Source of the DNA: a virus
Direction: 5' to 3' (one strand)
Virus record (IMG/VR): IMGVR_UViG_3300026292_000024
Location: 1-28,875 of that record
Length of the DNA stretch: 28,875 nt
The notes under the pieces were generated by a model. The model saw only the letters and a list, made by a program, of their open reading frames with translations. It was not told the origin of the DNA and made no database searches. Made by a program: the position numbers and the translations under genes. Every line of letters starts with the position of its first letter. Position 1 is the first letter of the stretch. Shown here piece by piece: positions 1,238-28,875 of this stretch.

Positions 1238-3098
1238 AGGAAAACAAGTTTTAAGGGAGGCATGGATTGAAGGTTTCAAACCTGATCCATTGCTTACGGT
1301 TTCTGAGTGGAGTGCTCGATATAGATTTCTTTCAACCAAGGCATCAGCCGAACCGGGGTTGTGGAGAAATAGTCGAACGCCGTATCTCGTCTCGATAATG
1401 GATTCACTCTCTCCGAGTAGCTCTTGTGAAAAAGTTGTATTCATGAAAGGAGCTCAGATTGGCGGGACTGAATGTCTGAATAATTTTGTTGGAGCTTGTA
1501 TTGATAATTTTCCGGGTCCATTTCTTTTGGTGAATCCAACTCAAGACATGGCCAAGAGAAATTCAAAAACAAGAATTGCTCCATTGATTGAAGAATGTCC
1601 ACAGTTAAGAAACAAAGTTCGGGAGGCCAAAAGTAGAGATTCAGGAAACAGCATTCTCCAGAAAGAATTTTTAGGAGGCATTATCGTCATGGTCGGGGCC
1701 AACTCGGCCAGCGGCCTCCGATCTATGCCAGCGAAATATTTGGGGCTTGATGAATGCGACGCCTACCCGGGGGACCTAGAGGGTGAAGGCTGTCCATGCC
1801 AATTGGCCGAGGCAAGAACTCGAACATTTAGCAAGAGAAAAATTTTCTATTGTTCAACTCCAACCTTTGCGGGTAGATCAAGGATCGAGCGTGAATACCT
1901 TGAATCAAATATGTCCTTGTATCACGTTCCTTGTCCGAACTGTGGGGAATATATTCCGATTGAATGGGAGTCTTTGCGATGGGATAAAAATTTGGAGTGG
2001 GTGAAATGTGCTTGTCCAGAATGCGGAGAGTTATTTGATGAGCATCACAAAGCCAAGATTTTGGGTGAAGGAAAATGGATTGCAAGGAACCCAGAATCAA
2101 AAGTCCATGGCTATCAACTCTCGTCTTTATATTCTCCTTTGGGTTGGTTCAGTTGGACCCAAGCGGTCAAGATGCACTTGAACGCAAAATCGGATGAAGA
2201 AAAAAAAGTTTTTACAAATACAGTTTTGGGTCGAACTTTTGCAGATGCGTTTGATGTTCCAGATTGGGAAGAGTTATATAACCGCCGAGAAAATTATCAG
2301 ATCGGAACAATTCCAGATAAAAAAATTGCTGTTTTAGTTGCTGGGGCTGACGTACAAAAAGACAGAATCGAGATGGAGGTTGTTGGCTTTTGTCCCAACA
2401 TGGAAAGTTATTCAATAGACCATCAAGTCGTTTATGGGAACACCGCCGAGGATGAGGTTTGGATTGAATTGTCAAAACGGATTCGATATATCTATCCGTC
2501 AAGTTGTGATGGAAAGGACATGGCGATTCGCATGGTTGCTATTGACTCAGGATTTAGAACTCAGGAGGTTTATAGATGGGTTAGGGGAGAGAACCAAGCT
2601 CAGGTGATTTGCATAAAAGGAAGGGAAACCCAATCCACAGTCATTGGTCCTTCATCATCGGTAGACGTAACGAGACGAGGGAAGACATGGAAAGCAGGGG
2701 TGAGGGTGTGGCCTGTTGGAACGTCAGTTACTAAGTCGGAATTGTATGGATGGTTGAAAAGAAAAAAACCATTAGATGAAGATGACGAACTTCCATTTGG
2801 TTGGGCTCATTTTCCAGAATGGCCAGAGGAGTATTTCAGACAGTTATGTGCAGAGCAATTAGTGACTAGGGTGGTGAGAGGATACCAAAAATTCCAATGG
2901 GAAAAAATCCGTGATAGAAATGAGATTCTTGACTTGCGGGTTTATGCTCGGGCCTGTGTTACTGCTCTTGGTTGTGATCGTTGGGATGAGAAACGATGGC
3001 TTAAAGAGTCCAGCAAAGTAAATCCAATTACAGAAAAAAAAGGAGCAAGTTCGGAAAAAGGTTTAAAGAGACGTAGAGGATCTTTCTTAAAGCGTTAG
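1221..3098 (+). CDS. Terminase large subunit, GpA family
   Basis: This is the 625-residue packaging motor ATPase and nuclease, close in length to lambda gpA (641). Visible are a Walker-A-like KGAQIGGTE (residues 76-84), a Walker-B-like LGLDECD (174-180) and a Cys cluster (CPNCG near 238-242, CACPECG near 263-269) typical of the GpA family. The C-terminal nuclease region has acidic residues in GADVQKDRIEMEV and AIDSGFRTQEVYRWV. The C-terminus is strongly basic (KGLKRRRGSFLKR). Two ATGs stand in tandem at 1221 and 1224. GGAGG at 1213-1217 is better spaced (6 bases) for 1224, so the true protein may lack the first Met. It acts at the portal vertex with the small subunit. Confidence 0.96.
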   Translation: MMALAKGKQVLREAWIEGFKPDPLLTVSEWSARYRFLSTKASAEPGLWRNSRTPYLVSIMDSLSPSSSCEKVVFMKGAQIGGTECLNNFVGACIDNFPGPFLLVNPTQDMAKRNSKTRIAPLIEECPQLRNKVREAKSRDSGNSILQKEFLGGIIVMVGANSASGLRSMPAKYLGLDECDAYPGDLEGEGCPCQLAEARTRTFSKRKIFYCSTPTFAGRSRIEREYLESNMSLYHVPCPNCGEYIPIEWESLRWDKNLEWVKCACPECGELFDEHHKAKILGEGKWIARNPESKVHGYQLSSLYSPLGWFSWTQAVKMHLNAKSDEEKKVFTNTVLGRTFADAFDVPDWEELYNRRENYQIGTIPDKKIAVLVAGADVQKDRIEMEVVGFCPNMESYSIDHQVVYGNTAEDEVWIELSKRIRYIYPSSCDGKDMAIRMVAIDSGFRTQEVYRWVRGENQAQVICIKGRETQSTVIGPSSSVDVTRRGKTWKAGVRVWPVGTSVTKSELYGWLKRKKPLDEDDELPFGWAHFPEWPEEYFRQLCAEQLVTRVVRGYQKFQWEKIRDRNEILDLRVYARACVTALGCDRWDEKRWLKESSKVNPITEKKGASSEKGLKRRRGSFLKR

Positions 3099-3122
3099 AC
3101 TATGAAAAGTTAGAGGTACGGC

Positions 3123-3326
3123 GTGGCTTCATCTTTATTTACACAAGCGGGATTGGATGCACTTGAGGAGAATATTGCGGCGGGACATTTAGAGGTTGAA
3201 TATGACAATAAAAGAGTTAGGTATAGAACTTTATCTGAGATGATGCAAATTAGAGATCTAATAAAAAGACGTCTTGGAGGGAAGACCACTCGCCGAGTTG
3301 TTCAATACTCAAACGGAATCAAATGA
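3123..3326 (+). CDS. gpW-like head-tail joining protein
   Basis: This 67-residue protein has nearly the length of lambda gpW (68). Features are a hydrophobic N-terminal helix, a YDNKRVRYRTLSEMMQIRDLI core and a basic C-terminus. In lambda, gpW stabilises packaged DNA in the head and prepares the vertex for tail attachment. The gene sits between terminase and portal exactly as in lambda. The start is GTG with AGAGGT 6-7 bases upstream. It overlaps the portal start by four bases (ATGA), which implies translational coupling. Confidence 0.85.
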   Translation: MASSLFTQAGLDALEENIAAGHLEVEYDNKRVRYRTLSEMMQIRDLIKRRLGGKTTRRVVQYSNGIK

Positions 3327-4828
3327 CAAAGACACCCTCACAAAATGCGGTTGATAAATTGATCGGCGTTGTTCATCCGTCGGAAGCTTTGAAACGTCAA
3401 AAAGCTCGGATGGCTTTGCATCAACTCAGAAGATTTGATGGAGCTGGCGGCGGACGTCGGACCGATGGTTGGACAAGTGCAACGTCATCCAGTGCGGATG
3501 CTGTTAATGGTCCAGACCTTGCAAAGATGCGAGATCGGTCTAGAGATTTAACAAGAAATAGTCCTTATGCGTCCAGAGCTGTTTCGACTATTTGTTCCAA
3601 TACTGTTGGAACTGGAATTCTTCCTCGGATAAGTTCACGGCGTTCAAAGGTTAGGCAATCCAGAATTACAGACTTGTTCAACGAATGGGCAACCGATCCA
3701 AGTCAAATTGATTGGGAGTCAAGAAATGATTTTTATGGTTTGCAAAATTTAGTTCTTAGAACTGTTGTTGAAAGTGGAGAGTGTTTAATTCGTCGTCGAA
3801 CAGTTTTAGATAATGAAACTATTCCTCTAAGGTTGCAAATTCTGGAACCAGATTTCTTGGATACTGGAAGGGATGGAGCAATTGCCACGGGCCATATAAA
3901 GCAAGGAATTGAATTTAATAGGGAAGGTCAAAGGGTTGCATATTGGGTATTTGAAACTCATCCGGGTGATTCTTCTATCTCGTCAATTAGTGGATTAGGA
4001 AAATCAAATCGAATTGATGCAAAAGAGATATTGCATGTTTACCGACAAGAAAGGCCGGGAGCTAGTCGTGGGATTCCTTGGTCGCATTCTGTAATTATTA
4101 AGCTTAGAGATTTTGAAGATTATTCCGACGCTCAATTGTTAAAGCAAAAAATCTCAGCTTGTTTCGCTGGTTTTGTTGTTGAGCCAGAAAGTCCAGACGC
4201 TGCTTTGGAAGGTGATTTGATCGAGTCTTTAGAGCCGGGTTTACTCGAAGTCTTGCCACCGGGAAAAGATATTAAATTTGCAAATCCTCCAAGTACTGCG
4301 GAATATGAAAAATTTACTCGTTCGATTCTTTTGCAGATTGCCAGCGGTTACGGAATAACTTATGAATCATTGACCTCCGATTTGTCCGCCACTAATTTTT
4401 CATCGGCTCGCCTTGGTTGGTTGGAGTTTTATCGAAATATTGAGACTTGGCGTTGGCAAATGTTGATTCCGCAATTTTTAACTCCTACATGGAAATGGTT
4501 TAAGAATGCGGCGGAAATTGGTGGAGTTCCTGTTGGAGATGTCAAAATAGAATGGACGCCACCTCGAAGAGAGTTAATTGATCCATCAACCGAAATTGAA
4601 GCAACAATAAAACAAGTTCGAGCGGGACTGCTCTCATTGCCAAAAGCTTTGAGGCAGTTCGGCTATGATCCCGAGGAGATCATGGCCGAGATCGGGGAAA
4701 GTAATGACAGGCTAGACGCCTTGAAATTAATTCTTGATTCTGACCCAAGACAGACGGCTCATAATGGGGCAACCCAAAAAGCCGAATCCTCAGAGGACTC
4801 ATCTACTGAAGAATCTCAAATTAATTGA
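3323..4828 (+). CDS. Portal protein, lambda family
   Basis: This 501-residue lambda gpB-type portal forms the dodecameric ring through which DNA enters and leaves the head. Supporting features are MRDRSRDLTRNSPYASRAVSTI (near residues 67-88), the NTVGTGILPRI segment, an ILEPDFLD motif, an HVYRQERPGASRGIPW segment and the GYGITYESLTSDLSATNFSSAR region, which are hallmarks of the family. Length is slightly below lambda gpB (533). The C-terminus is a Ser/Glu-rich tail. It overlaps the gpW-like gene and is followed by a 24-base gap before the protease-capsid gene. Confidence 0.95.
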   Translation: MTKTPSQNAVDKLIGVVHPSEALKRQKARMALHQLRRFDGAGGGRRTDGWTSATSSSADAVNGPDLAKMRDRSRDLTRNSPYASRAVSTICSNTVGTGILPRISSRRSKVRQSRITDLFNEWATDPSQIDWESRNDFYGLQNLVLRTVVESGECLIRRRTVLDNETIPLRLQILEPDFLDTGRDGAIATGHIKQGIEFNREGQRVAYWVFETHPGDSSISSISGLGKSNRIDAKEILHVYRQERPGASRGIPWSHSVIIKLRDFEDYSDAQLLKQKISACFAGFVVEPESPDAALEGDLIESLEPGLLEVLPPGKDIKFANPPSTAEYEKFTRSILLQIASGYGITYESLTSDLSATNFSSARLGWLEFYRNIETWRWQMLIPQFLTPTWKWFKNAAEIGGVPVGDVKIEWTPPRRELIDPSTEIEATIKQVRAGLLSLPKALRQFGYDPEEIMAEIGESNDRLDALKLILDSDPRQTAHNGATQKAESSEDSSTEESQIN

Positions 4829-12921: not shown

Positions 12922-15900
12922 ATGACAACACTCGCTGGGTACTACAACAGGTTCAACGTCGCTGACAAGTATGACAATTTACTTTTCAGGGCGTCTAAGG
13001 GTCTGCAATCCGCTGAATTAAATGAAATTCAGTCCATCCTTAGTGATCGAATTCAAAAGATCTCTAATGTCCTTTTCAAGGATGGATCAATTGTTCGTGA
13101 TGGATCGGCGACTATTGACGCCGCCACTGGACAAGTACAAATGGCCGCTGGAGCCATTTATGTTCTTGGAGCTGTTAGAGAAGTTTCAAGCACTACTTTC
13201 ACAATCCCGACGAGTGGACAGCTTTCAATTGGGGTAAGGGTTACAACTTCAGAAGTTACTGAGGTTGAATCATCAGCTCTTAGAGATCCAGCAACAGGGA
13301 CACGAAACTACGATGAGCCCGGTGCTGGTAGAACAAAACGAGAATTAGTTTGGGGCTGGTCTGGAGATGGTGGCTCAGGAACCTTCTATCAAATCTATGC
13401 GGTAGAAAATGCCACTCTAGTCACTCAGGTTGAACCACCTCAGCTTGATTCAGTAACTCAGCTAATTGCTAGATACGACAGAGACTCAAATGGCAACTAT
13501 GCGGTAAGAGGATTAAATGTTGTCAGTCAGGGTTCAAACGCCGCTGGAACTAACTATCTTTTCACTGTTACTCAAGGGGTAGGAAATGTAGAAGGATATA
13601 AGGTTGATAAGCCAGCATCGATTCAAAAAAGTTTCACAAAAAATCCTGATCTTTTTAGCATTAATAATGAGCCTCATTCATCCTCAACGGCTGCAACTCA
13701 AACAGTCACTCTGAACTATTCGCCACTTAATGCGATTAGTGATTGTGTTGTAACTCTTGAAAAGAGCGTTACTATTTCCCATGGTTCATTTACTGGAGCA
13801 TCCGACCCGCTTCCAGATACCGCCGTTTTAAGTATTCAATCTGTAACTCAGGGCGGTACAACTTACAGCCTTGGTACTGATTTCAATTTGACTTCAGATC
13901 AAGTTGACTGGAGCCCGGGAGGAGCTGAGCCAGCTCCCGGTTCTACTTATTCGGTAACTTACAGATATTTGGATTCGGTAACGCCCGCAAATATAAATGA
14001 AGATAATGGAACTTTTGAGGTCACAGGTGCTGTTGCTTCAACTTTGATTCTTGTTGATTACAATTGGAAGCTTCCTCGTTATGACGTCATGACGATGAAT
14101 AAAACAGGAGAAATAAATTTAATTAAAGGAGTTTCATCAAGATTCAATCCTGAGGTTCCGTTGCTATTTGTTCCAGATAGTGACCTTTTATTGGCCTCTA
14201 TTTATTACAACTGGAAGTCAACTCACACTCCATTGGTGGATGACATCGGAACCCGAGTCACATCTATGGATGACATGCGGAAAATCAAAAAGGCAATTGT
14301 CAACCTTCATGACTTGATAGCAATAGAACGTCTTGAACGTGACCTTGCATCAAAAGAGCCCGCCGCAAAATATGGAACATTCTCCGAGCCGTTCAACGAT
14401 GATAGCTTGAGAGATCTTGGACAAGCTCAGGACGCCGTGATGATTTCAGGCGACTTGCAAATGCCTGTTCCGATCACTCAGGTTGAGCCAACAAACAATG
14501 CAACAACAACCTCAACTCTGGATTACACAGAAGAGGCGGCCTTAAGTCAGGTTTTAAGAACTGGCTCAATGTTGATAAATCCTTATCAATCATTTGAACC
14601 AATCCCAGCCTTAGTGACGTTGAACCCATCAACAGACCTTTGGACAATTGTTGATGAGCAAGTTACCAATACAGACTCCACTCGAAGAATTGGAGCTGGA
14701 AATAGGTCCTCCACATGGACAACCGAAACTCTTGAACTTGTTTCATCTGTTAGTGAAGTAATCGAGTTTATGAGACAGAGAACAGTAGCTTTTGAGGTTG
14801 CTGGTTTTGGTCCTAGTGAAAATCTTTTAAGGCTTACATTTGCGGGTGATGAAATTACATTGTCACCAATGCCTCAGGCGAACGCCTCGGGTGAGCTGAC
14901 TGGATCTTTTACAGTTCCAGCAAATGTCCCCTCAGGTGACGTTGAGGTTGAGTTCTTAGGGGCTGGAGGAAGTAGAGGAACAGCCCGCTATTTTGCACAA
15001 GGAACCTTAAGGACTGAGCAATGGGTAAGGAATAGAGTCACAACAACTTCTTTTTGGTGGGGTGGCTGGGACCCTCTTGCTCAAACTTTTGCTTTGACAG
15101 AAGATCGTCAAATTAGTTCAGTTGATTTGAAATTTACTCAAGTTGGAAATACAGGGAATGAGGTTCAAGTTCAAATCAGAGAAACAGATAATGGATTCCC
15201 TACGGCCACTGTTATTGGTGAGGCTGTAATTCCGGGTAATCAATTAACTACTAATAATGTTTTTGTAAATGCAGCATTTTCAAACTTGGTTCATTTGGTA
15301 GCCGATAGAGAATATGCAATCGTGGTCATGACTGATGACGCCGCTCATGCTGTTGCTATTGCAGAAATTGGAAAATATGATCAATTTGCACAGACATGGG
15401 TAACAGCTCAACCGTTCACAATTGGAACTCTTTTAAGTTCATCAAACGCTAAGACTTGGACTCCACATCAAGATATGGATCTTTGTTTTAGGTTGAACGC
15501 TGCAAGCTTTACATCTACTTCTAAGACTGTTGACCTTGGTACTTTATCTGTCACTAACATGTCAGATATTCAACCATTCGCACCTGTTTATCTTCCTAGT
15601 GCGGCGACTAATACGATCTTTAAATACACAAGATCGACTGGAGAAATCTTCGAGATGGATTCAGGAACAGGGGTTAACTTGGCGGCGTTTGTAACTGACA
15701 CAATGTCAGTTCAAGCGGTTCTAAATGGAACCTCAAAATTGAGTCCTGTTTCATTCCCCGGAATGGTTACAAACATCGGCTCACTTGATACGGCGGCAAC
15801 ATACATCTCCCGAGCGTTCACGCTCAACACAAGTGGAGGAAGCCTCAAGATTTATTTTGATGCTTTAATTCAAGGAACGGCTACGGTCACACCTGAATAT

Positions 15901-16086
15901 GACGCTGGCTCACAAACATGGACTGGTCTATCTCTTGATAGTTCAACTCCATTAGGTGACGGTTGGGTTGAATATAAATATTCAGTCGCAGCCGCTGGCC
16001 TTTCAACAACTGCCATTAAATTGGCTCTCGCTGGAACTCCACAGTTCCGTCCAAGAGTTCGTAATTTGCGAGCCATCTACATCTAA
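12922..16086 (+). CDS. Large tail-fibre protein, DUF4815-like
   Basis: This 1054-residue protein has an N-terminal region (residues about 5-330: YYNRFNVADKYDNLLFRASKGLQSAELNEIQSI, DGSIVRDGS, GAIYVLGAVREV) that matches the DUF4815 family of large phage proteins, as I remember it. The remainder is long, Thr/Ser/Val-rich and mostly beta. A WVRNRVTTTSFWWGGWDPLAQTF segment lies near residue 695, DFNLTSDQVDWSPGGAEPAPGS earlier, and the C-terminus resembles a carbohydrate-binding-like sandwich (SLKIYFDALIQGTATVTPEY). It is almost certainly part of the long or short tail fibre. A Mu/P2-style fibre name is not supported. The Shine-Dalgarno sequence is weak; it follows the previous gene after 16 bases. 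Confidence 0.75.
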   Translation: MTTLAGYYNRFNVADKYDNLLFRASKGLQSAELNEIQSILSDRIQKISNVLFKDGSIVRDGSATIDAATGQVQMAAGAIYVLGAVREVSSTTFTIPTSGQLSIGVRVTTSEVTEVESSALRDPATGTRNYDEPGAGRTKRELVWGWSGDGGSGTFYQIYAVENATLVTQVEPPQLDSVTQLIARYDRDSNGNYAVRGLNVVSQGSNAAGTNYLFTVTQGVGNVEGYKVDKPASIQKSFTKNPDLFSINNEPHSSSTAATQTVTLNYSPLNAISDCVVTLEKSVTISHGSFTGASDPLPDTAVLSIQSVTQGGTTYSLGTDFNLTSDQVDWSPGGAEPAPGSTYSVTYRYLDSVTPANINEDNGTFEVTGAVASTLILVDYNWKLPRYDVMTMNKTGEINLIKGVSSRFNPEVPLLFVPDSDLLLASIYYNWKSTHTPLVDDIGTRVTSMDDMRKIKKAIVNLHDLIAIERLERDLASKEPAAKYGTFSEPFNDDSLRDLGQAQDAVMISGDLQMPVPITQVEPTNNATTTSTLDYTEEAALSQVLRTGSMLINPYQSFEPIPALVTLNPSTDLWTIVDEQVTNTDSTRRIGAGNRSSTWTTETLELVSSVSEVIEFMRQRTVAFEVAGFGPSENLLRLTFAGDEITLSPMPQANASGELTGSFTVPANVPSGDVEVEFLGAGGSRGTARYFAQGTLRTEQWVRNRVTTTSFWWGGWDPLAQTFALTEDRQISSVDLKFTQVGNTGNEVQVQIRETDNGFPTATVIGEAVIPGNQLTTNNVFVNAAFSNLVHLVADREYAIVVMTDDAAHAVAIAEIGKYDQFAQTWVTAQPFTIGTLLSSSNAKTWTPHQDMDLCFRLNAASFTSTSKTVDLGTLSVTNMSDIQPFAPVYLPSAATNTIFKYTRSTGEIFEMDSGTGVNLAAFVTDTMSVQAVLNGTSKLSPVSFPGMVTNIGSLDTAATYISRAFTLNTSGGSLKIYFDALIQGTATVTPEYDAGSQTWTGLSLDSSTPLGDGWVEYKYSVAAAGLSTTAIKLALAGTPQFRPRVRNLRAIYI

Positions 16087-26576: not shown

Positions 26577-26661
26577 AGGACGCATAAGCAAGACAGATCA
26601 ACAAATTTTTAAATCAATTTTTGACCAAACAATTTTTGAACCTCCAGAGGAAGATGATTAA
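26503..26661 (+). CDS. 52-residue unknown protein
   Basis: The frame extends up to 26461, but the best start is ATG at 26503 because GGGAGG lies 9 bases upstream. It gives a 52-residue protein, TFLQEALKSYTGDPHQEQAF then AFLEGRISKTDQQIFKSIF, ending in the acidic FEPPEEDD. It overlaps the 3' end of the holin-like gene in a different frame. It is helical and acidic with no recognised family. It is the last gene before the promoter array. Could be a lysis-associated protein by position only. Confidence 0.55.
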   Translation: MTFLQEALKSYTGDPHQEQAFAFLEGRISKTDQQIFKSIFDQTIFEPPEEDD

Positions 26662-26687
26662 TTGTTTCAGTTTGTTACGAAACCTGT

Positions 26688-26723
26688 AATGCTGTTTCAC
26701 TCTAGGCATTCCATGTTTATATT
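26688..26723 (+). promoter_or_regulatory. Array promoter A
   Basis: TATATT (26718-26723) is preceded 17 bases earlier by TTTCAC (26695-26700). An AATGC/GCATT dyad flanks the -35 and spacer. Upstream, GTTTC/GAAAC near 26664-26683 forms a small dyad and TTTGTTAC is shared with copies C and E. It drives the structured RNA unit. Confidence 0.55.
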
Positions 26724-26796
26724 AAGGGAGCCTTAAGTCACATATCGGGCGTGACTCCTCTGCACTGGACAAGATAAGTGTCAGCCTTTCAGGGAT

Positions 26797-26895
26797 ATGA
26801 GCTGCGATCAAATCCCCTCTTTTATTCTTTTTGAGGGTTCAAAAAGACGTTTCCTACTACTTCAGGACCGCAACGCATCGGCACTTCCAGAGTGA
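26797..26895 (+). CDS. Possible 32-residue peptide in the structured unit
   Basis: ATG at 26797 opens 32 codons: MSCDQIPSFILFEGSK then RRFLLLQDRNASALPE. It ends at TGA 26893-26895, three bases before the terminator stem. AGGG precedes the ATG but only 2 bases away, and it is paired in a GGGAT/ATCCC dyad. The tight fit of the stop to the terminator is the same as in the other array genes and argues for translation. The long leader and dyads argue for an RNA. No family is recognised. Confidence 0.35.
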   Translation: MSCDQIPSFILFEGSKRRFLLLQDRNASALPE

Positions 26896-26897
26896 GA

Positions 26898-26924
26898 AAG
26901 CCTCCCTAATCAGGAGGCTTTTTT
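26898..26924 (+). terminator. Intrinsic terminator of unit A
   Basis: AAGCCTCC (26898-26905), a seven-base loop, GGAGGCTT (26913-26920) and a run of T to 26924 form an 8-bp stem with a U-tail. It closes the first array transcript. Confidence 0.85.
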
Positions 26925-26964
26925 AATGGCATGATGTAGACAGAGATAAAAAGGTCATGCCGAA

Positions 26965-27078
26965 ATGGACAAAGAGCTCGACAAAGAAAAAACCAAAGAA
27001 GAAGAAAAGGACTATCAGTATGTAAGAGATGATCATTGGCTCATGGGAGACTGTGAAGATGAAGACCTTTACAACTGA
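26965..27078 (+). CDS. 37-residue acidic protein
   Basis: ATG at 26965 starts a frame of 37 codons: MDKELDKEKTKEEEKDYQYV then RDDHWLMGDCEDEDLYN. AAGG lies about 10 bases upstream. It is very acidic and highly charged. It stops at TGA 27076-27078, immediately before the AT-rich box of promoter B. I do not see a good promoter of its own after the unit A terminator. A 22-codon basic frame starts at 26957 in another phase and overlaps it; AAGG is too close to that ATG. No function is suggested. Confidence 0.4.
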   Translation: MDKELDKEKTKEEEKDYQYVRDDHWLMGDCEDEDLYN

Positions 27079-27081
27079 TTG

Positions 27082-27130
27082 TAAATTAAATATGAAAAGC
27101 TTTTGCTTTTAGGCTTTCCGTGTTTATATT
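27082..27130 (+). promoter_or_regulatory. Array promoter B
   Basis: The AT-rich box TAAATTAAATA (27082-27092) is followed by a dyad AAAGC/GCTTT, the -35-like TTTGCT (27102-27107), a 17-base spacer and TATATT (27125-27130). AAAGGAG follows, and GAGTC/GACTC (27135-27139, 27150-27154) then bracket the region just before the ATG at 27155. Confidence 0.6.
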
Positions 27131-27154
27131 AAAGGAGTCACCCGCCAAAGACTC

Positions 27155-27427
27155 ATGACACTTGTAATCGCTCAGCATTCCTTTCAAAAAGAAAAATTTG
27201 TATGGGATGGAATGTATTTGACCTATGGAGACAACAGAGACTTTATTGCTCGCTTCAAGTATGGCCGCAAAAATTACAAAACTTGGATTAATTTCCTTGT
27301 AAAAAATTTCACCGTTGAGGAATACTTGAAACTCATTGATCACAGAAACCCAGATCATGTTGCTCCATTGACCGCATTAGAAACAAAAGGTTTTGTTTCT
27401 AACTACAGAAAAAGCAAAAGAGGTTAA
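27155..27427 (+). CDS. 90-residue unknown array protein
   Basis: The start MTLVIAQHSFQKEKFVWDGMYL is followed by YGDNRDFIARFKYGRKNYKTWINFLVKNFTVEEYLKLI and a basic end (NYRKSKRG). The pattern, an aromatic-rich strand region then an F-x-x-FLxKNFTVEEY helix, looks like a compact globular phage early protein. I do not name it. The ATG lies 17 bases after GGAG with a short dyad between. Its stop codon sits in the loop of its own terminator. Confidence 0.7.
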   Translation: MTLVIAQHSFQKEKFVWDGMYLTYGDNRDFIARFKYGRKNYKTWINFLVKNFTVEEYLKLIDHRNPDHVAPLTALETKGFVSNYRKSKRG

Positions 27428-27443
27428 CCACCTCTTTTTTTTT
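27417..27443 (+). terminator. Intrinsic terminator of unit B
   Basis: AAAGAGGT (27417-27424) pairs with ACCTCTTT (27430-27437) across the loop TAACC, and a T-run extends to 27443. The TAA stop of the gene (27425-27427) is in the loop. Confidence 0.85.
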
Positions 27444-27458
27444 GTTTGTTACTAATTG

Positions 27459-27507
27459 TTAATTAAATACGGAAAGCTTGCCAAACTAAGCAATTCGGGT
27501 TTATATT
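27459..27507 (+). promoter_or_regulatory. Array promoter C
   Basis: TTAATTAAATA (27459-27469) is followed by CGGAAAGC, -35 TTGCCA (27478-27483), an 18-base spacer including GCAATTCGG, and TATATT (27502-27507). The leader ACATACCAAAGGA lies before the gene at 27531. Confidence 0.65.
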
Positions 27508-27530
27508 AAGAACATACCAAAGGACATCAA

Positions 27531-27770
27531 ATGAACTTCTTCAACACCTTCTTCACAGAAAAAAATCTTACAGAAGAAACCTATGAAGTCACCTCAGCAA
27601 ACGGAACTCCAAACCTAATTCCAACAAGTGCTGTTATCGATGCAATCAAAAGGACACAAGGAACAGAGGCTCAGCAAATCGAAAAAATCTTGAGACAGAT
27701 TGATTTCGCAAATGGCAACGTCCACCACTTCCTAAAGCACATCGCTCAAGGCTTAGCCATCGACTTCTAA
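27531..27770 (+). CDS. 79-residue unknown array protein
   Basis: NFFNTFFTEKNLTEETYEV and a NGTPNLIPTSAVIDAIKRTQ element are followed by QQIEKILRQIDFANGNVHHFLKHIAQGLAIDF. The second half reads as helices. A preceding AAAGGA gives a strong Shine-Dalgarno sequence 7 bases before the ATG. The gene is a single unit between promoter C and a GAAA-loop terminator. No family is named; it looks like a small soluble accessory protein. Confidence 0.7.
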   Translation: MNFFNTFFTEKNLTEETYEVTSANGTPNLIPTSAVIDAIKRTQGTEAQQIEKILRQIDFANGNVHHFLKHIAQGLAIDF

Positions 27771-27774
27771 AGAC

Positions 27775-27799
27775 AGCCCCGAAAGGGGCTCTTTTTTTT
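27775..27799 (+). terminator. Intrinsic terminator of unit C
   Basis: AGCCCC-GAAA-GGGGCT (27775-27790) forms a perfect stem with a GNRA tetraloop, followed by C and a T-run to about 27799. Confidence 0.9.
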
Positions 27800-27814
27800 G
27801 CTTATTACTAATTG

Positions 27815-27863
27815 TTAATTAAATATGTAATGCTTGCCAAAACGGGCTTTCCTAGTTTATATT
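27815..27863 (+). promoter_or_regulatory. Array promoter D
   Basis: TTAATTAAATA (27815-27825), -35 TTGCCA (27834-27839), an 18-base spacer containing GGGCTTTCC, and TATATT (27858-27863). The leader AACATACCAAAGGAACTTCA is identical in unit E. Confidence 0.65.
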
Positions 27864-27887
27864 TAAAACATACCAAAGGAACTTCAA

Positions 27888-28154
27888 ATGACTGCTAAAA
27901 CAAAAACTAACTTCATTTTTGAAATTGATCACCCTGATACAGTTTCCCCAAGAGCTATTCAAACAAGTGTTGTAGGACAAAAAGGATTGTTAGATTTCAA
28001 AGCTTTAGAGATTAACGAGATCTCACCTTTTAAGACAAGGTATGTTTTTCAAGTTAAGCACCCAAGACATATAACACCAAAAGAAATTGAACAAAAAATG
28101 GAAGGCCGCCAAGGTTGCATCTCTCTCAAAATTCTTGAAGTTATCCCTCAGTAA
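27888..28154 (+). CDS. 88-residue array protein with internal duplication
   Basis: This protein consists of two similar halves of about 35 residues. FIFEIDHPDTVSPRAIQTSV with VGQKGLLDFKALEI aligns with YVFQVKHPRHITPKEIEQKM and EGRQGCISLKILEV; HP, P, I, two G, K and LE are kept. Each half reads as strand, helix, strand. This would give a small alpha-beta sandwich, an inference. AAAGGA precedes the ATG by 7 bases. Function unknown. Confidence 0.7.
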   Translation: MTAKTKTNFIFEIDHPDTVSPRAIQTSVVGQKGLLDFKALEINEISPFKTRYVFQVKHPRHITPKEIEQKMEGRQGCISLKILEVIPQ

Positions 28155-28160
28155 CCACCC

Positions 28161-28182
28161 GACCCCGAAAGGGGTCTTTTTT
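28161..28182 (+). terminator. Intrinsic terminator of unit D
   Basis: GACCCC-GAAA-GGGGTC (28161-28176) is followed by a T-run (28177-28182), similar in design to unit C but with different stem bases. Confidence 0.9.
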
Positions 28183-28197
28183 GTTTGTTACTAATTA

Positions 28198-28246
28198 TTA
28201 ATTAAATATGTAATGCCTTTACTTTCGGGCAGTTCGGGTTTATATT
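28198..28246 (+). promoter_or_regulatory. Array promoter E
   Basis: TTAATTAAATA (28198-28208), -35 TTTACT (28218-28223), a 17-base spacer and TATATT (28241-28246). The dyad arms are AATGCC and GGGCAGTTC, less perfect than in A, B and F. The leader is identical to unit D. Confidence 0.62.
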
Positions 28247-28270
28247 TAAAACATACCAAAGGAACTTCAA

Positions 28271-28522
28271 ATGAACATCCACACAGCATCACCAACAATC
28301 ACAGGCTACACAATCAAAATTTCTGCAAAGCAAACTTTGAGCGTAGTTGTCAAGTCTGGTCCTAATGCTTATTGCTCAGTTTCTACAAAAACAGAAGGCG
28401 GACGCAATCTACCTTTTGGAAAAGTCTTCCACGGTGAAGACTGCTTAATTCAAGCTCTAAATTCTTACAAAAGAGCAACAGTTAAAAAAGCAATCCGTCA
28501 GGTTATCTCTGAGCAAGTTTAA
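28271..28522 (+). CDS. 83-residue basic unknown array protein
   Basis: The N-terminal half is beta-rich and Thr/Ser-rich (TITGYTIKISAKQTLSVVVKSGPNAYCSVSTKTEGG). The second half is helical and basic (DCLIQALNSYKRATVKKAIRQVISEQV). AAAGGA lies 7 bases upstream of the ATG. The last codons form the 5' arm of the terminator, with the stop in the loop. No recognised family; the basic nature allows nucleic-acid binding, but nothing proves it. Confidence 0.68.
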   Translation: MNIHTASPTITGYTIKISAKQTLSVVVKSGPNAYCSVSTKTEGGRNLPFGKVFHGEDCLIQALNSYKRATVKKAIRQVISEQV

Positions 28523-28538
28523 AGCTCAGAGATTTTTT
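28505..28538 (+). terminator. Intrinsic terminator of unit E overlapping the gene end
   Basis: ATCTCTGAGC (28505-28514) and GCTCAGAGAT (28524-28533) form a perfect 10-bp stem, then TTTTTC. The stop codon TAA (28520-28522) is inside the loop. Confidence 0.88.
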
Positions 28539-28551
28539 CTTTTACAACACA

Positions 28552-28602
28552 ATGTAAATAAATGCGGAAAGCCTTGACTTTTAGGCGTTCCGCTTTTATA
28601 TT
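28552..28602 (+). promoter_or_regulatory. Array promoter F (best copy)
   Basis: -35 TTGACT (28574-28579), a 17-base spacer and TATATT (28597-28602) make a near-consensus sigma-70 promoter. GCGGAAAGCC (28564-28573) and GGCGTTCCGC (28584-28593) are inverted repeats matching at 9 of 10 positions, with 20 bases between centres (two helical turns), bracketing the -35. This is the layout of a repressor operator. Confidence 0.72.
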
Positions 28603-28630
28603 TAATACATACCAAACAAAGGAACCGAAA

Positions 28631-28807
28631 ATGTCAAACTACAAGCCTTTCACTTCAACAAGAAAAGATGGCTCTACATTCGCTCTAGTTGTGAGAGTTG
28701 ACAGAGACGGCGAAACAAATGCAGTTCATGGATATGCTGGCCGCTACTTCAAAACAGAAAAGGCTGCCATCAGGAGCTGCGAGAGATGGATCGCTAAAAA
28801 CGCATAA
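28631..28807 (+). CDS. 58-residue unknown array protein
   Basis: The frame is open from 28562, but that region is the promoter. ATG 28631 has AAAGGA 7 bases upstream, as in the other units, and gives 58 residues: SNYKPFTSTRKDGSTFALV, VRVDRDGETNAVHGYAGR and YFKTEKAAIRSCERWIAKNA. The sequence is compact beta-beta-alpha by pattern, with FKTEKAAIRSCERW as a likely helix. No family recognised. Its stop is built into the terminator. Confidence 0.7.
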   Translation: MSNYKPFTSTRKDGSTFALVVRVDRDGETNAVHGYAGRYFKTEKAAIRSCERWIAKNA

Positions 28808-28829
28808 GAGCCGAAAGGCTCTTTTTTTT
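28806..28829 (+). terminator. Intrinsic terminator of unit F
   Basis: AAGAGCC-GAAA-GGCTCTT (28806-28823) with a T-run to about 28829. The stem begins within the TAA stop of the gene (28805-28807). Confidence 0.9.
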
Positions 28830-28846
28830 GCTTTTACAACTAAATG

Positions 28847-28875
28847 TTAATTAATAGCGGAATGCCTTTGCTTCG
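28847..28875 (+). promoter_or_regulatory. Array promoter G, cut by the window end
   Basis: TTAATTAATA (28847-28856) and AGCGGAATGCC match the left part of the other array promoters, followed by TTTGCT. The -10 and the gene would lie beyond the window, so at least one more unit follows. Confidence 0.6.

Follow-up and report, generated by a model that had tools for sequence, protein, structure and literature searches.

The promoter array at 26.66-28.88 kb of the stretch of viral DNA analysed here (28,875 bases; hereafter the window) is best explained, with a probability of about two in three, as a series of self-contained cassettes that share a common promoter-operator, which would be bound by a dimeric protein, and whose joints exchange genes between related viruses. 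Each independent cassette would comprise a sigma-70-type promoter with an operator dyad over the -35 region, a short leader, a tiny accessory gene or non-coding RNA, and an intrinsic terminator. The anatomy of the array, the conserved symmetric core at a fixed distance from the -10 element and the gene exchange with breakpoints inside promoters can be read directly from the DNA of the window and of a handful of relatives, all of them metagenomic contigs that were compared by sequence throughout.

The gene order of the window, which belongs to a virus record, runs from a lambda gpA-type terminase (phrog_15), through a myovirus morphogenesis module (a DUF4815 protein, the tape measure and a gpD-like tail protein), to the promoter array, which lies downstream of the late tail genes and in the same direction. 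The virus belongs to a small myovirus lineage that is unrelated to the T4-type phages. A 238-aa protein encoded beyond the array in relatives matched 409 phage records, of which almost all are cyanophages, and the best matches of a tryptophan halogenase are likewise in cyanophages; it is therefore likely that this marine virus has a marine Synechococcus or Prochlorococcus as its host. Despite this likely cyanobacterial host, the DUF4815 protein (window 12922-16086) finds its best matches in Acidithiobacillus and Wolbachia phages (VrlC-like). Bases 1-11 of the window (GGGCCGTGACT) are identical to the last bases of the related contig L021 and also match the right end of L022, which suggests cohesive (cos-type) genome ends and, in turn, that the window and its relatives cover nearly the whole gene content; a genome of about 45 kb is suggested as an estimate. 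The Marine virus AG-345-D19 has one protein in common with this lineage and lacks the motif, the tail protein, when searched against prokaryote genomes, had a single weak and irrelevant match in Idiomarina, and the first 90 bases of the window gave only short chance matches among named phages.

Six complete promoter copies (A-F) and a seventh (G), which is cut by the contig end, make up the array (Table 1). In each copy an upstream box is followed by the dyad GNAANGC-N12-GCNTTNC around the -35 region, three free bases and TTTATATT. With TATATT taken as -12 to -7, the left arm occupies -43 to -36 and the right arm -25 to -18 in every copy, the centre of the dyad falls near -30.5 throughout, and the 10-nt loop between the arms contains the -35 region. 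Copy A differs slightly, as its loop has one extra base and TTGTTTCAGTTTGTTACGAAACC stands in place of the AT-rich box that is present in B-G. The leader ACATACCAAA(GGA) is common to C-F, and leader stretches of ~36 nt are identical between some copies. The seven copies with the last one cut, the AT-rich box in most of them and the leader shared by C-F had all been noted in a preliminary description of this DNA and are confirmed. Matches to the -35 consensus are good in several copies (TTGACT, TTGCCA) and weak in several others. In the promoters of B-E the AT box is separated from the left arm by about the same distance as the -10 element from the right arm (e.g. 27814-27824), and on the opposite strand it reads TTTAATT, such that a weak divergent promoter is conceivable; when a second dyad was sought in this box no placement stood out.

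Table 1. Promoters, genes and other features of the array, in window coordinates
Feature	Coordinates	Strand	Details
Promoter A	26662..26723	+	box TTGTTTCAGTTTGTTACGAAACCT; arms 26686-26693, 26705-26712 (one extra loop base); TATATT 26718-26723
Unit A, apparent non-coding RNA	26727..26925	+	~195 nt; terminator hairpin ~26893-26920
37-aa ORF	26965..27079	+	C-terminal part fused to upstream gene in L006
Promoter B	27070..27130	+	arms 27094-27101, 27112-27119; TATATT 27125-27130
Unit B gene	27155..27427	+	90 aa; phrog_22119, function unknown; terminator 27416-27438
Promoter C	27447..27507	+	arms 27471-27478, 27489-27496; TATATT 27502-27507
Unit C gene	27531..27770	+	79 aa; phrog_6004, function unknown; terminator 27775-27790
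Promoter D	27803..27863	+	arms 27827-27834, 27845-27852; TATATT 27858-27863
Unit D gene	27888..28154	+	88 aa; no family; terminator 28161-28176
Promoter E	28186..28246	+	arms 28210-28217, 28228-28235; TATATT 28241-28246
Unit E gene	28271..28522	+	83 aa; terminator hairpin within 28505-28540, overlaps gene end
Promoter F	28542..28602	+	arms 28566-28573, 28584-28591; TATATT 28597-28602
Unit F gene	28631..28807	+	58 aa; no family; terminator 28806-28823
Promoter G (cut by contig end)	28835..28875	+	AT box and left arm 28859-28866

The motif exceeds chance by several measures. A weight matrix built from 21 copies gave the window copies 45-72 bits, against -3.8 for the best of 40 shuffled windows, the matrix having been trained on the very copies that it scored. 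The pattern G.AA.GC-N12/13-GC.TT.C-N3-TTTATATT, which is independent of the matrix and still derived from these same copies, was matched six times within the array region when no more than one mismatch was allowed, and in none of 300 dinucleotide shuffles. Among 549 possible placements of a dyad on 14 non-redundant copies the one described here ties for best, with 6.0 of 8 positions paired against a mean of 2.2, in copies that are related by descent and may owe part of their shared sequence to inheritance. Across the whole of IMG/VR the strict pattern was recovered from only four stretches, three of which belong to this lineage and the fourth of which is a chance match; named phages and the rest of IMG/VR gave only short AT-rich or chance matches to the motif. 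Contig L024 was discarded as a chance match with a matrix score of -13. A scan for the sigma-70 consensus alone returned 10 matches against 9.5 in shuffled sequence, five of the ten being at the dyads.

The conservation of the dyad bears on what might recognize it. In the 14 non-redundant copies no change is seen at the left-arm columns G1, A3, G6 and C7 or at the right-arm columns that pair with them; two right arms differ at the partner of A4, and arm positions 2, 5 and 8 are variable. An alignment of four orthologous promoters of the last unit has 105 columns, of which 34 vary, and the 10 core positions are not among these. When right arms were re-dealt among the copies 6.02 +/- 0.18 of 8 positions paired, versus 6.00 observed (P=0.61), and a symmetric change was seen in a single orthologue pair (GGAAAGC/GCTTTCC in L028, GTAAAGC/GCTTTAC in L006). 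Hence, the covariation that would have supported the dyad as an RNA stem is absent. Since the symmetric core is invariant, the arms do not covary and the one orthologue pair has changed symmetrically, the dyad fits the operator of a dimeric protein better than an RNA stem. The preliminary description had made its proposal depend on conservation of the dyad in relatives, and the core is indeed conserved there; its covarying arms dissolve in the re-dealing, and the two helical turns that it placed between them shrink to 18 bp (8-mers) or 19 bp (7-mers) from centre to centre, rather than ~21. Three contigs have one more dyad away from the array, on the minus strand (L021 5370, L022 5355, L020 5370). 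Its upstream box resembles that of A, TTTAATAT could serve as its -10, and it precedes a 61-aa ORF with coiled-coil or membrane-like character.

The conserved symmetric core makes it plausible that a common regulator binds the dyad. We propose that a dimeric DNA-binding protein recognizes GNAANGC-N12-GCNTTNC and most likely represses all the units together, because the dyad covers about -43 to -18 and thus overlies the -35 region. Repression would be the simplest mode of action, and the weak -35 of several copies leaves room for activation. It could thus be supposed that a phage or host dimer over a weak -35 recruits RNA polymerase and switches the array on at a particular stage, middle or late. 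In line with this, conservation is comparatively low in the loop around the -35 (mean information 0.73 bits versus 1.4 for the arms), and the array follows the late tail genes in the same direction. However, the -35 contact would lie beneath a dimer spanning -43 to -18, an arrangement that agrees better with a block, and several copies retain a good -35, and we consider activation to be rather unlikely.

Turning to what the promoters drive, an intrinsic terminator (a hairpin followed by a T run) closes each of the six complete units, where the preliminary description had claimed this of most. Its statement that each promoter drives an unrelated tiny gene stands for units B-F, which contain one ORF each (58-90 aa) and whose five proteins are mutually unrelated, and falls for unit A, which has no obvious ORF. 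Other phages encode distant relatives of the proteins of B and C, as reflected in the family assignments of the two (Table 1). Models of defence systems gave only two weak matches, both to the protein of unit E, which we take as chance. The cassettes may carry larger genes too, as in L006 an ORF between two dyad units (~2439-3480) resembles, by eye, a cytosine-5 DNA methyltransferase.

Unit A is apparently a structured, non-coding sequence: no ORF of at least 38 aa is found behind its promoter, and its sequence folds moderately better than shuffled versions (z -2.26). A search of Rfam yielded no family at gathering score for this unit; the best match, Phe_leader, fell below that score and came mainly through the terminator hairpin, and was rejected. 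The sequence is nearly unchanged in three contigs, and a different sequence lies behind the same promoter in L005 (9686-9951). The 350-bp A cassette (window 26655-27004) lies within a reading frame that runs unbroken in L006, where the match to window position 26,654 joins the match to 27,005 with five bases between them. This single ORF of L006 (1467-1700) reads ...FEPPEEETKEDYQYVRDDHWLMGDCEDEDLL, and its counterpart in the window is split into a 5' ORF and the 37-aa ORF. The cassette may have been lost in L006 or gained in the others.

Exchange of genes at the promoters emerged from a comparison of the window with three sets of relatives, G1 (L004/L007/L010), G2 (L005) and G3 (L006). On the one hand, near-identical promoters precede unrelated genes: the C promoter of the window is 95% identical to the C promoter of L005, and its F promoter is 98% identical to the D promoter of G1 (G001), with unrelated genes behind them in both cases. 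On the other hand, members of one gene family occur behind different promoters. The 83-aa family of unit E is found behind an E-type promoter in the window and G1 (with 98% identity between the window E promoter and its G001 counterpart) and behind a C-type promoter in L005, and a 105-112-aa family has different promoters in G1 and in L006. Finally, the C units of G1 and L005 share almost identical DNA that begins at the right dyad arm and extends over the gene, and they diverge upstream of that arm, which places a breakpoint within the promoter. These comparisons strongly support the view that the promoters are recombination joints at which relatives have swapped genes in and out, and the earlier notion of plug-in genes behind a standard promoter is thereby upheld.

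Such clear shuffling raises the question of whether the promoters are only recombination joints comparable to the PeSLs discussed below, with the dyad being retained because it provides shared homology or forms a DNA/RNA hairpin and no regulator involved, a view with which the failure to find a CI-type repressor in the composite of relatives would agree. We regard this as unlikely: homology alone would not keep a symmetric core free of change when the loop, box and flanks around it have diverged, the arms lack the covariation of a stem, and the dyad also appears outside the array, on the opposite strand, ahead of the 61-aa ORF in three contigs. It is very improbable that the array and the swaps are only mimicked, either by a single promoter that was duplicated recently or by assembly chimaeras formed where promoters are repeated, as would be conceivable given that every sequence is a metagenomic contig and that some copies share identical leader stretches, for the core is invariant while loop, box and flanks have diverged, the contigs bear different sample identifiers, and several different swaps are seen.

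Returning to cassettes with a common operator, we envisage that the terminator-promoter joints offer short stretches of homology on which a RecT/nuclease pair of the phage itself could recombine them, and that a captured gene would end up behind the same regulated promoter. A RecT-like annealing protein and a PD-(D/E)XK nuclease, both encoded by the relatives, together are a plausible engine of such short-homology exchange. Neither an integrase nor a CI-type repressor was seen in the composite of the window, whose own genome is incomplete, and its relatives, and the only HTH protein recognized in the relatives is a 60-aa HTH_17 protein that is weakly excisionase-like. As a more specific and decidedly tentative version, joint and operator may form one conserved element, by which a captured gene joins a single co-regulated set in a lytic dwarf cyanomyovirus, under a dimeric regulator of GNAANGC-N12-GCNTTNC that is either host-encoded (cyanobacterial) or a new phage-encoded protein. 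A conserved operator in the joint would explain how tiny accessory genes can be gained and lost without disturbed regulation. The dyad also provides a precise bait sequence in the search for the regulator, and the tiny genes of unknown function are listed here for testing in cyanobacteria.

Several known systems share features with this array. The late promoters of P2 are bound by Ogr/Delta at a site centred near -55. The present promoters are similar in having a short dyad upstream of the -10, in a phage with P2-like tail genes, but their dyad is centred near -30.5 and in no copy near -55. The genomes of cluster A mycobacteriophages, like this array, contain many copies of one regulatory site; however, their operators and stoperators are asymmetric 13-mers that are recognized by a monomeric immunity repressor and also occupy intergenic non-promoter positions (PMC9283540), whereas the site described here is a symmetric dyad that is always paired with a -10, and an immunity repressor was not found in the composite of relatives, the window's own genome being incomplete. 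Morons are independently transcribed accessory genes of phages (PMC2920897), and the cassettes resemble them in that each accessory gene stands alone with a promoter and a terminator of its own and is present in some relatives and absent from others; they differ in that many units stand in tandem with one shared promoter-operator.

The PeSLs, or promoter early stem-loops, of T4-type phages, as described in PMC4503421 (citing Arbiol 2010 and Comeau 2014), combine a terminator hairpin with an adjacent promoter between small genes, lie densely in a plastic region, and are joints at which genes are shuffled between relatives. The same arrangement is present in this array, as is the shuffling, in this case by sequence comparison only. 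In contrast to the PeSLs, the lineage has a lambda gpA-type terminase and a gpD-like tail gene and not a T4-type core, the promoter sequence is not that of T4-type early promoters and its motif was found in this lineage only, and a conserved operator dyad covers the -35, with the terminator as a separate element. By this analogy the array appears to work like PeSL cassettes and is best classed as a variant of them rather than as a member, the operator built into the joint being the addition. The shuffling of promoter-terminator cassettes would in this way extend from the T4-type phages to an unrelated lineage of small marine myoviruses.
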